Positions 3,678 through 63,999 of a stretch of DNA of 64,000 nt are shown in pieces. Source of the DNA: Maribacter spongiicola (GTDB lineage: Bacteria; Bacteroidota; Bacteroidia; Flavobacteriales; Flavobacteriaceae); the NCBI RefSeq assembly GCF_004364165.1, contig NZ_SOAY01000010.1:1763098-1827097 (forward strand). Direction: 5' to 3'. The notes under the pieces were generated by a model. It searched no databases and was not told the DNA's origin. It saw only the letters and a list, made by a program, of their open reading frames with translations. A program made the position numbers and the translations under genes. The first letter of the stretch is position 1; the number at the start of each line of letters is the position of its first letter.

Positions 3678-3707
3678 CCGTTCGTCGACACTTTTTGTCG
3701 ATTCGTC
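3678..3707 (+). promoter_or_regulatory. Direct repeat, 21-bp period (LytTR-like operator candidate)
   Basis: CCGTTCGTC (3678-3686) and CGATTCGTC (3699-3707) are direct repeats exactly 21 bp apart. Two nine-base half-sites with a 12-bp spacer is the geometry of LytTR response-regulator sites. A -7-like TACTTTTA follows at 3779-3786, with no -33 box, which fits an activated promoter. Similar elements occur before the paralogous genes near 13 kb and before the response regulator at 62.98 kb. Binding by a LytTR protein is inference. Confidence 0.4.
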
Positions 3708-3805
3708 TCAGATTTTTACCCTAGCCGAAAATTATAGCAGTTTAGCGAGGTCAAGATGCTTAATCGTAGACCTCAAAGTACTTTTACATTGTTCAACATT
3801 ACGAT

Positions 3806-4063
3806 ATGAAAGCACTTGTAACCTTACTAATAATAATTTTCGCTGGCGCATTAGCAATAGCACAAACTCCCCAAACAGATGATAAAATTAACACTACTGA
3901 AGTGGGTGTTGTTTTGGTTGATAGCTCTGACAATACTGGCGACGAAAAAAAGATTCAAATTATTGATGAAACGTCAGTAGCACGTCTGTACAGATACGCT
4001 AATGCTAGAGTTAACAAAGAATTAGCATTCGCTACCCAAAAGTCATATGGTAAGTTGGCATAA
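3806..4063 (+). CDS. Small secreted protein, family member 1 (85 aa)
   Basis: A signal peptide (MKALVTLLIIIFAGALAIAQ) is followed by about 65 mature residues, acidic at first and basic at the end. The C-terminal segment VARLYRYANARVNKELAF aligns with the two duplicated proteins encoded at 12.9 and 13.5 kb (VARLYKNKNNRVIKALEF), with shared VARLY, N-RV, K, L-F and a final KL. The mature N-terminal halves differ. There are no cysteines and no known domain. All three copies have a signal peptide of about 20 residues, the same length (85-86 aa), and CCATTCGTC-type elements upstream. The function is unknown; an exported peptide or cell-surface role is speculation. Confidence 0.7.
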   Translation: MKALVTLLIIIFAGALAIAQTPQTDDKINTTEVGVVLVDSSDNTGDEKKIQIIDETSVARLYRYANARVNKELAFATQKSYGKLA

Positions 4064-13173: not shown

Positions 13174-13252
13174 AATATTTGTTTTACACTGCTAAAGTAC
13201 AGGCAAGCCCAAACATATTTTGCCGCTCGTCGTTGGGCGTCATTTAACTATA

Positions 13253-13261
13253 GACGAATGG
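13253..13261 (-). promoter_or_regulatory. CCATTCGTC element upstream of member 2
   Basis: Minus strand ACCATTCGTC followed by TATAGTTAAATG. Position by position it resembles the element before the response regulator (ACCATTCACC then GATAGTAAACTG at 62887). Only one good half-site is visible here; no 21-bp repeat partner is found. Confidence 0.35.
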
Positions 13262-13444
13262 TAAATAGGCTTCGGTTATTAAATTCATAGAAGGTGAAAA
13301 ATGAAGCAGATATAACATGTGATAGCAAGCTCAATAACCGAGAGTATAGGGGATGACAGCATTAGTTTTGTGATAAGTAAGCTATTTATAGCATGTATGC
13401 TATAAGGTTGAATGGTTATTAGAATGTGATTTATAAGTTTGAGT

Positions 13445-13887
13445 TTGATTCTTGAACTTGAACTTAAAAAGTAGATAATGGTAAGAAAAGGTGTAGGTAT
13501 AAAATTTGGGACGAAAAGGGTATTTAAAACAGTATTAAGAAAGTTTAGCGCTATTCAATTTTGTTGTGAATTTTAAAGCCTTGATAACTCTGTTGTTTTT
13601 GTTCTTGTACAATGTAGCAACTTCGATTGTGTTTTCAGTTTTGATTGTTGGAACAACAATATCATTACTTTCAATTGTTTGAACCATCTCTATTTGTATA
13701 GTTTCGATCTCTAAAGAAACATTCTCGTTGTTAGCTTGCGCTTTTACTAAGAAAGTAGAGAAGAAAAGAGCGGTTAAAAGAATAATAGATTTCATAATAT
13801 TTGTTTTACACTGCTAAAGTACAGGCAAGACCAAACATATTTCGCCGCTCGTCGTTGGGCGCCATTTAACTATAGACGAATGGTAAA
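13445..13887 (-). repeat. Tandem duplication, copy B
   Basis: Second copy of the block at 12824-13265. At its upstream edge it gains a perfect inverted repeat, TAGACGAATG (13873-13882) and CATTCGTCTA (13891-13900), which copy A lacks. Confidence 0.88.
13535..13795 (-). CDS. Small secreted protein, family member 3 (86 aa)
   Basis: Nearly identical to member 2. The signal peptide is MKSIILLTALFFSTFLVKAQ, and the changes include IKVE to IQIE, VARLY to VATLY and ALEF to ALKF. The substitutions keep the frame open and are mostly conservative, which argues that both copies are still under selection. It is upstream of member 2 on the same strand, separated by 361 bp that hold copy B's downstream edge, a spacer and copy A's upstream element. 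Function unknown; export is the only supported property. Confidence 0.72.
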   Translation of the reverse strand: MKSIILLTALFFSTFLVKAQANNENVSLEIETIQIEMVQTIESNDIVVPTIKTENTIEVATLYKNKNNRVIKALKFTTKLNSAKLS

Positions 13888-13900
13888 AATCATTCGTCTA
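13873..13900 (-). promoter_or_regulatory. Inverted repeat upstream of member 3
   Basis: TAGACGAATG and CATTCGTCTA are perfect 10-bp arms with an 8-bp spacer. The minus-strand reading of the first arm is the CCATTCGTC element shared with the other family members, so the second arm may be an additional, opposed half-site. Confidence 0.45.
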
Positions 13901-13950
13901 CGGTTAATGTAGTTGTAAAATGTATTCGCAAATTAACGTGTTAATAGGGT

Positions 13951-62866: not shown

Positions 62867-62917
62867 ATACTCGTCGGCAGAGAATTACCATTCACCGATA
62901 GTAAACTGCCATTCACC
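62867..62917 (+). promoter_or_regulatory. Triple 21-bp-period repeat (LytTR-like operator candidate)
   Basis: CCATTCACC at 62888-62896 and again at 62909-62917, exactly 21 bp apart; a weaker third copy, ATACTCGTC, lies one further period upstream (62867-62875). The last copy ends 32 bases before a -7-like GACTTTTG (62950-62957). The geometry fits a LytTR-type activator; the element resembles those before the secreted mini-protein genes. Confidence 0.5.
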
Positions 62918-62976
62918 TACAGCAGTTAATTTTTATCGTAAGATTGTCAGACTTTTGAATCTCAAATATTTATGTT

Positions 62977-63378
62977 ATGGATATATTACTTATCGAAGAC
63001 GATTTAATAGAAGTTATGAAACTGAAACGTACCGTTTCTAAACTTAACTTGAAGCATACAATTATAGAAGCAAAAAACGGTGAAGAAGCTTTGAACTTTT
63101 TAAGATCTGGCGAGAAATTACCTGATATTATTCTTTTAGATTTGAATATGCCAAGAATGAACGGTATTGAATTTCTAGCTATTTTAAAGGCAGATGAATT
63201 ACTTCAATATTTACCTACGGTTATTTTAACAACCTCAGAAAATAGGGCAGATTTGTTGAAATGTTATCAAGCGGGTATCGCTGGTTACGTTATCAAACCA
63301 TTGAAATATGAAGATTACGAGTACAAATTAAACGCAGTTTTAGAGTACTGGAATGTTAATCAACTAGTGAAAGGCTAA
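62977..63378 (+). CDS. REC-only response regulator
   Basis: 133-residue receiver domain without an output domain. Acidic pocket Glu7-Asp8-Asp9, phosphorylation site Asp55 (ILLDLNMPRMNG), Thr85/Thr86, and Lys107 (YVIKPL) are all in place. It may act as a phospho-relay or bind a partner protein. It stands next to an H-NOX gene, so a gas-signalling role is possible. It has its own weak, probably activated promoter. Confidence 0.9.
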   Translation: MDILLIEDDLIEVMKLKRTVSKLNLKHTIIEAKNGEEALNFLRSGEKLPDIILLDLNMPRMNGIEFLAILKADELLQYLPTVILTTSENRADLLKCYQAGIAGYVIKPLKYEDYEYKLNAVLEYWNVNQLVKG

Positions 63379-63456: not shown

Positions 63457-63999
63457 ATGAAAGGAATCGTATTTACCGAGTTTTTAGAAATGGTCGAATC
63501 TGAGTTCGGTTTAGAAACAGTCGACAATATCATTGAGAAATCAAACTTACCTTCAGAGGGTATTTACACCTCAGTCGCTACCTATGAATTTAATGAAATG
63601 GTAGCGCTGATCACCCAACTAAGTAAAGAAGTAGATTTACCTGCCGGAGATTTAATCTATGCATTCGGACTTTACTTGTTTTCAAGTTTAAAGAATGCAC
63701 ACCCAGAGGTTATACAAAGCTACAAATCGCCAATAGGGTTATTATATTCTATTGAAGATCATATACATGTTCATGTAAAAAAGCTTTATCCAGAAGCTGA
63801 ACTGCCTACCTTTAAAATTCTTGAAAAGACCGATAGCTCTATATCTATGATATATTCTTCATCTAGGGGGCTATACAGATTGGCACACGGTTTAATTGAA
63901 AAAGCATTTGAACACTTTAATGGCAAAGCCGATATTACTTATGAACTTCTTAAAGAAGACGGTACTGAAGTGAAATTTGATGTTGTACAACATGGATAA
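63457..63999 (+). CDS. H-NOX heme-binding gas sensor
   Basis: Heme-nitric oxide/oxygen-binding domain protein of 180 residues, the standard stand-alone size. The YxSxR motif that holds the heme propionates is Y133-S-S135-S-R137; the proximal heme His is probably His104 in the helix segment EDHIHVHVKKLYP (102-110), with His102 and His106 as neighbours. It has no distal Tyr motif that I can identify, so it would be an NO rather than O2 sensor by family rule. In bacteria H-NOX partners are histidine kinases, diguanylate cyclases or phosphodiesterases; the partner is probably just beyond the window. Confidence 0.93.
   Translation: MKGIVFTEFLEMVESEFGLETVDNIIEKSNLPSEGIYTSVATYEFNEMVALITQLSKEVDLPAGDLIYAFGLYLFSSLKNAHPEVIQSYKSPIGLLYSIEDHIHVHVKKLYPEAELPTFKILEKTDSSISMIYSSSRGLYRLAHGLIEKAFEHFNGKADITYELLKEDGTEVKFDVVQHG

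Follow-up and report, generated by a model that had tools for sequence, protein, structure and literature searches.

A pair of direct repeats with a 21-bp step stands in front of a gene run of Maribacter spongiicola that begins with a single-domain response regulator (REC) and an H-NOX haem sensor, and we consider it very probable that these repeats form a LytTR operator bound by the operon's own LytTR regulator, which would be autoactivating and would control a regulon of matrix-polysaccharide and secreted-protein genes. What we observed is the element and its conservation, where it stands in genomes, an often constant distance to a TTTG, the order of the genes, and that element and LytTR gene tend to occur together; from these we infer binding by the LytTR protein of the operon. 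The operator would consist of two strong 16-bp half-sites and one degenerate half-site, direct repeats placed two helical turns apart, and would adjoin the core promoter of the REC/H-NOX operon on its upstream side. The regulator encoded by the last gene would bind there and switch on the operon it belongs to; copies of the element elsewhere would let it activate polysaccharide-export and glycosyltransferase genes and the gene of a secreted DUF6923 protein. Further targets would be STAS proteins in other genera and small secreted proteins in the source genus.

Exact copies of CCATTCACC lie at 62888-62896 and 62909-62917 of the 64-kb stretch of DNA analysed (the window), a step of 21 bp, and a search of both strands of the window found no further exact copy. 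The direct repeat is longer than this core, with 79% identity over 19 nt (62883-62901 and 62904-62922). An earlier note on this DNA had described the motif as occurring twice at an exact 21-bp step, which is confirmed at 62888 and 62909, and had placed a third, degenerate copy upstream, which is present at 62867 and is weak. A strong third half-site in the window is rejected at a score of 2.0 bits, compared with 16.0 and 15.2 bits for the other two, and the copy is retained as degenerate. Its register is weakly supported: the mean score over 65 upstream sequences has a z of 3.1 at offset -21, near the next-best offsets, and a z of about 12 at offsets 0 and +21. The note had also remarked that the spacer between the copies resembles an element near the genes at 13 kb. 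The likeness holds up: the "spacer" forms part of the half-site consensus, which in aligned orthologues reads CCATTCGTCGACACTT followed by about 5 variable bases. When nine Maribacter relatives were compared with the window, footprint identity was 80% over the 21-bp step of half-site 1, 67% over that of half-site 2 and 68% over that of the third half-site (62867); the three steps thus span 67-80%, compared with 46-51% in the non-coding flanks and 85% at the start of the receiver gene.

Table 1. Coordinates of the features discussed; positions are those of the window unless another sequence is named.
Feature	Position	Strand	Evidence or remark
Degenerate third half-site (ATACTCGTC)	62867-62882	+	2.0 bits; one 21-bp step upstream
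Half-site 1 (CCATTCACCGATAGTA)	62888-62903	+	16.0 bits
Half-site 2 (CCATTCACCTACAGCA)	62909-62924	+	15.2 bits; exactly 21 bp from half-site 1
Putative promoter -7 element (GACTTTTG), TA missing	62950-62957	+	inferred; TTTG at 62954, 45 bp past the start of half-site 2
Single-domain response regulator (REC only, 133 aa)	62977-63378	+	PF00072, E 1.3e-20; first gene
H-NOX haem sensor (HNOB, 180 aa)	63457-63999	+	PF07700, E 7.2e-39, 133.7 bits; second gene
PAS kinase, FIST, kinase, Hpt-like, LytTR	L048:4977-10588, past the window end	same	domain searches
LytTR response regulator, 236 aa	L048:9878-10588		last gene of the run
Element, second-best genomic match	3678-3708	+	22.1 bits, E 8.9e-4; 128 bp ahead of mini-protein
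Putative secreted mini-protein, 85 aa (MKALVTLL...)	3806-4063	+	without Pfam or NCBIfam match
Element before first 13-kb mini-protein	13241-13262	-	13.7 bits; one strong half-site
Putative secreted mini-protein, 86 aa	12913-13173	-	near-duplicate of 13535-13795, 93% identity
Element before second 13-kb mini-protein	13851-13884	-	18.1 bits; one strong, one weak half-site
Putative secreted mini-protein, 86 aa	13535-13795	-	

Models that never saw the window's site recover it with high scores. A sequence-only model trained on 22 orthologous sites (R1), built without the window's own locus L018, which was held out, L024, which has no site, and the weak L039, gives the site 27.7 bits, corresponding to an expect value of 2.1e-7 in the window and 1.5e-5 genome-wide, and ranks it top among the best 150 scored of 1,884 first-look candidates in the genome. 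A close receiver orthologue (E below 1e-47) is present in 25 of the 60 family genomes, and the 21-bp tandem was found in 24 of these 25 upstream sequences, two of them weak at 16-18 bits (L039 and L042). When a matrix was trained on all tandem-bearing family upstreams except L018, the copy held out scored 36.5 bits, compared with at most 6.2 in 100 shuffles that preserve single-base composition only. Among 66 named Flavobacteriaceae loci (L183-L248), some of which come from species also used in training the matrix, 64 are usable, L218 and L231 being without upstream sequence, and 62 of the 64 score 17 or more; the two low scores belong to L242 and to L236, which has only 151 nt upstream. The nearest named relatives are Maribacter (the receiver is 100% identical in one Maribacter MAG), and the ten Maribacter loci among the named set, none used in training, score from 30 to 46. 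Upstream scores of more distant receivers (n = 14) are -7.1 or less.

The -7 element of Bacteroidota is TAnnTTTG, and the repeats keep a frequent distance to its TTTG. The distance from the first base of half-site 2 to the first base of a TTTG is exactly 45 bp in 23 of 64 operon upstreams, which are related sequences whose counts are not independent, and also in 17 of 42 non-operon sites; none of 500 rotations of the downstream sequence reaches either count at any single offset. The next peak, at 66 (45 + 21), would arise wherever the best-scoring pair is followed by one more half-site. As for the complete word TAnnTTTG, its position is fixed among the non-operon sites (7 of 20 at one offset, a count that 0 of 500 rotations reach) but not among the operon upstreams, where 2 of 5 share an offset and 79 of 500 rotations do as well. 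The register test left out two coding matches (G051 C154 and G026 C3), the unfetched G057 C352, the three matches of G003, G023 and G029, and, in the source genome, L069 (the operon site), L074, L079, L081, L084 and L085. A position just upstream of the core promoter would fit an activator, and control is accordingly read here as probable activation, not repression.

The genes behind the element are closely packed on one strand and are probably co-transcribed as one operon, judging from the sequence. Their order is REC, H-NOX, a PAS histidine kinase (792 aa), FIST, a second kinase, an Hpt-like protein (106 aa) and LytTR, and the REC orthologue precedes the same genes in other genera. Among 20 fetched family loci LytTR is last in 18, H-NOX is present in 19 and a full FIST gene in 8. 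In the named set LytTR follows REC in 63 of 66 loci, the remaining three being cut by contig ends, and eight of the 66 are without an H-NOX match and retain both LytTR and the element. The LytTR regulator scores above the curated cut-offs for PF04397 and PF00072 (67.1 and 61.4 bits versus 22.6 and 30.2), and no DNA-binding domain other than its LytTR domain was found in the seven proteins encoded there. The obvious candidate reader of a LytTR-type repeat is thus encoded in the operon that the repeat precedes.

The other products of the run suggest how such a regulator might be addressed. The signature of H-NOX proteins is a haem-ligand histidine with YxSxR, and HIH and YxSSR are retained in at least 90% of 20 aligned sequences. 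The FIST protein has both the N and the C domain of that family; its identification as NosP (NF041558) is rejected at 60 bits versus a curated cut-off of 450. The Hpt-like protein falls below the Pfam Hpt cut-off (14.8 versus 24.6 bits). AlphaFold2 predicts it to be a helical bundle (pLDDT 92.5), its best PDB matches in Foldseek are Hpt domains (TM 0.77, E 0.039, none at E 0.001), and His56 is invariant in 37 of 37 aligned sequences, out of 56 found.

Presence of the element tracks presence of the operon's LytTR gene. In 24 genomes of the same genus, none used for training, matches were found in 19 of 19 genomes with LytTR versus 1 of 5 without (Fisher p 4.7e-4). With the best 150 candidates scored per genome, so that counts are lower bounds, the LytTR-bearing genomes hold at least 75 matches and the LytTR-less ones a single weak match (E 0.037). 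Completeness is low in two of the five LytTR-less genomes (64% and 81%); when the comparison is restricted to genomes at least 90% complete the counts are 16 of 16 versus 1 of 3 (p 0.018). Across the family, with a LytTR orthologue called at E 1e-50 and only non-training matches considered, the element occurs in 20 of 25 LytTR-bearing and 4 of 35 LytTR-less genomes (p 9e-8), five of the 25 having no non-training match among the best 112 candidates scored per genome. One genome (G011) separates the two arrangements: its long operon copy without LytTR is also without the element (L024 and L054), and a second receiver gene, adjoining LytTR, has it. The exceptions are G009 and G018, which bear LytTR and have no match at E 0.05, and G049, where a search at E 1e-50 gave no LytTR orthologue and the gene run is broken, yet the element is kept and there is a second intergenic match. 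A generic promoter feature is rejected on the small number of matches per genome and their dependence on the LytTR gene.

A LytTR operator, as set out in the available sections of PMC4847170, consists of two repeats of 9-11 nt lying 11-13 nt apart in the target promoter. Here CCATTCACC occurs twice at a 21-bp step with 12 nt between the cores, a LytTR regulator is present and co-occurs with the element (19 of 19 versus 1 of 5 in the genus, with G009, G018 and G049 as exceptions in the family), and the site holds a fixed place upstream of target promoters (TTTG at offset 45).

The earlier note had named random scatter of the motif through the genome as an outcome that would speak against it, and the placement of the matches does not bear that outcome out. 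The R1 search, which scored the best 150 of 1,884 first-look candidates and so gives lower bounds, returned at least 17 matches at E up to 10; of the 17, only one falls inside an ORF of at least 100 aa, and at 12 of the 17 a convincing same-strand ORF begins shortly downstream. After the window's operon site and the match ahead of the 85-aa mini-protein, the third-ranked match (19.0 bits) stands ahead of a PAS kinase gene, the site of the second 13-kb mini-protein follows (18.1 bits), another (17.5 bits) is upstream of the secreted DUF6923 protein, and match C10 (17.1 bits) has no evident gene. Weaker matches, at E 0.18 and above, include a polysaccharide flippase, a glycosyltransferase, a DoxX-like protein, a sugar transferase, a REC-glycosyltransferase fusion and the first 13-kb mini-protein; the weakest are single half-sites and may be of chance origin.

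Three of these target regions merit description in their own right. The polysaccharide cluster holds flippase and glycosyltransferase genes twice, as diverged copies (L048:15313-18076 and L182:635-3185). The fusion protein (388 aa, L182:9438-10604, about 23 kb beyond the window end) joins a receiver to a family-2 glycosyltransferase according to Pfam and has a weak element upstream (E 1.4); it has a relative in G045 (Pfam) and probably one in G036, and a glycosyltransferase controlled by phosphorylation would be unusual. The secreted DUF6923 protein (L179:2-2467, minus strand) has the element ahead of it in five genera, with a Pfam check in two, its relative in G014 carries a C-terminal secretion sorting domain, and it is a candidate matrix or surface protein.

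The same kinds of gene recur in other genera. A search of the 60 family genomes, with the best 112 candidates scored per genome under stricter filters and counts again to be read as lower bounds, gave at least 63 matches at E up to 0.05, comprising 20 training sites and 43 non-training matches, 39 of the latter in LytTR-bearing and 4 in LytTR-less genomes. We fetched 36 of the 37 non-training matches outside the source genome, including 32 from LytTR-bearing genomes; no ORF of 100 aa or more covers 29 of these 32, and at 28 of the 32 a same-strand ORF starts within 350 bp. The four in LytTR-less genomes comprise two inside ORFs, one without a gene ahead and one (in G049) 199 bp before a gene. 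Recurrent targets are a flippase (G014, G032 and, as second gene after a STAS gene, G045), glycosyltransferases (G032, G044, G059), the REC-glycosyltransferase (G045 by Pfam, G036 by length and start, with a lone 123-aa receiver in G044), the DUF6923 protein (G014 by Pfam; G026, G044 and G048 by likeness of their starts) and STAS proteins (G008, G019, G045 and G051, all by Pfam); further ones are a DoxX-like protein (G001) and a UDP-sugar dehydrogenase (G034). Pfam was run on ten of the proteins downstream of family matches. Some recurring matches precede genes without an evident link to the matrix, for example phosphoribosyltransferases (G034, Pfam). A hand count from contig coordinates places 22 of the 33 non-training matches of the remaining LytTR-bearing genomes no more than about 26 kb away from the LytTR gene.

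Within the source genus the element also precedes genes for small, putatively secreted proteins. Among 76 genus matches, 30 were examined for their genes: 14 precede the receiver gene, 7 the 3806-4063 type of mini-protein (as a tandem) and 2 a PAS-type protein. At the 17 close relatives of the 13-kb proteins, out of 30 loci examined, a strong half-site starts 88 bp before the ATG in every case, with a weaker partner half-site 21 bp on from it. Behind the promoter of the second mini-protein, two half-sites run in opposite orientation with a gap of a few bases (13884-13851 minus, 13890-13908 plus). Every same-genus genome searched (25 of 25) contains relatives of the 13-kb type, 1-6 matches in each, and a search of 15 genomes belonging to other families of the order gave none. 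The 13-kb query missed the 3806-4063 protein in the source genome and did recover a relative of that type in G073 (E 4.2e-5). Assignment of the mini-proteins to a known family is rejected, since none has a Pfam match and the one NCBIfam match is far below its cut-off (T9SS_sortase_N, 16.8 versus 40 bits).

The proposal in the earlier note that a LytTR regulator is shared by the REC gene and the mini-proteins gains support from the fact that the same model finds both promoters in the source genome and in others of its genus and that its matches track LytTR; on the other side, the 13-kb sites have one strong half-site each, and some paralogues carry a variant element in genomes without LytTR. 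Distant paralogues mostly lack the element, with 2 of 11 usable upstreams scoring above 15 (L274 and L278, near contig ends, were unusable), and we do not claim that the operon's LytTR is the sole control of all mini-proteins. By eye and with no control, a variant 21-bp pair, TTTATCGA and CACTTTATCC, was seen before several paralogues (L276, L277, L280, L284, L286, L287 and L331), also in LytTR-less genomes. It may be the recognition code of a different LytTR protein.

There may be a second reader, given that the variant pair occurs in genomes without the operon's LytTR, and the source genome has 17 LytTR matches from which to choose. The operator might accordingly be read mainly by another of these 17, with the operon's LytTR controlling something else; the variant pairs and the weak match (E 0.037) ahead of a 3806-4063-type mini-protein in LytTR-less G070 would agree with this. 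We nevertheless think it unlikely, because matches track the operon's LytTR in genus and family, because the element accompanies the adjoining REC and LytTR genes in G011, and because the surroundings of the other 16 LytTR domains are without a strong element: in segments of 3.2-3.3 kb around each of the 17 domains, outside which some promoters may lie, there was one weak match only (8.4 bits, E 0.27). A reader of another class is less probable still. Direct repeats in register with a promoter are not unique to LytTR proteins, as OmpR/PhoB-type winged-helix proteins bind such repeats too, and the element has a weak internal periodicity of 10-11 bp (z about 3) that might suit them, but LytTR supplies the only DNA-binding domain found in the run, the element's presence tracks that of the LytTR gene, and a step of 21 bp agrees with LytTR sites as the consulted portion of PMC4847170 describes them. 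That the repeat is a chance or neutral feature of an AT-rich intergenic region is refuted by the held-out model (E 1.5e-5 genome-wide), conservation across many genera, the footprint and the TTTG register, even though single 9-mers with one mismatch are common and in themselves unremarkable in the window (15 matches versus 8.5 expected; 2 of 100 shuffles reach 15).

If the operon's own LytTR protein is the reader, the remaining proteins suggest a route by which a signal may arrive. The kinases are without receivers, a single-domain receiver and an Hpt-like protein stand apart, and LytTR carries a receiver of its own; a four-step relay is therefore the natural reading, its order being suggested by the order of domains. 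The haem sensors (H-NOX, and FIST in many species) would set the two kinases, and phosphate would pass from the kinases to the single-domain REC, on to the Hpt-like protein and finally to the LytTR regulator. The signal may be nitric oxide, to judge from the H-NOX domain only. We give an even chance to the wider proposal that a haem-gas phosphorelay of Flavobacteriaceae drives its own operon, the nearby polysaccharide cluster, the DUF6923 protein and the mini-proteins, nitric oxide acting by direct transcription and not by c-di-GMP. Such a system would have two sensor cassettes (H-NOX/kinase and FIST/kinase), each absent in some species, and one 21-bp tandem code for all targets, with a matrix-polysaccharide cluster often encoded nearby.

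LytTR sites share no common sequence, according to the sections of PMC4847170 available to us, and the targets of a LytTR regulator can therefore rarely be read from a genome. The operator described here is clear enough for regulon prediction across several genera. If the circuit is as proposed, haem-based gas sensors of marine flavobacteria would be linked to matrix polysaccharide and secreted proteins, and nitric oxide would control surface life in these bacteria. The DUF6923 secreted protein and the genus-specific mini-proteins would gain a first lead to their function, and a single reporter would suffice for a direct test of how marine flavobacteria respond to nitric oxide. Literature searches found nothing on the operon, the element or the regulon, which is no proof of absence; mentions of flavobacterial LytTR in the accessible parts of PMC7440613 and PMC10197871 are confined to a domain count and a mutated regulator.

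The closest parallels differ in their parts. The operators of E. coli YpdB and BtsR (YehT) have, as far as the extracts consulted describe them, the same layout of paired repeats. The BtsR site is ACC[G/A]CT[C/T]A, and it resembles ACCATTCA. The YpdB site, as an oligonucleotide printed in the portion of PMC4847170 we used, is GGCATTTCAT twice at a 21-bp step. In contrast to both, the half-site of the element is different, the predicted regulon is larger, with polysaccharide genes, the regulator's own operon would be targeted, and a receiver, an Hpt-like protein and LytTR are associated with soluble haem sensors, not a LytS-type kinase. A separation into single-domain receiver, phosphotransfer protein and DNA-binding regulator is also familiar from the Spo0 phosphorelay (Spo0F-Spo0B-Spo0A). 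The division into separate proteins is the same here, but the output is LytTR, the phosphotransfer protein is Hpt-like, all are encoded in one gene run, and transfer is predicted.

LytTR domains are tied to gas sensing in CoxC and RcoM, regulators of CO-oxidation genes, as they appear to be here, and CoxC reads three direct repeats 18-21 bp apart, in the excerpted text of PMC11347149. CoxC is a repressor that combines CO sensing and DNA binding in one protein, whereas here sensor and regulator are separate proteins, there are two strong repeats, and a position ahead of the core promoter points to activation. Proteobacterial H-NOX proteins pair with kinases and response regulators, as here, and are tied to biofilm, with transcriptional outputs mentioned in general terms in the consulted part of PMC8738867; the outputs named there and in the corresponding part of PMC6769237 for H-NOX and NosP differ from ours, being c-di-GMP enzymes and quorum sensing. 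In the available text of these two papers LytTR appears as an S-nitrosylation target only, and the word stem Bacteroid is absent. Direct-repeat LytTR operators are already known, and we rate the code and the proposed circuit as new and the architecture of the operator as ordinary.
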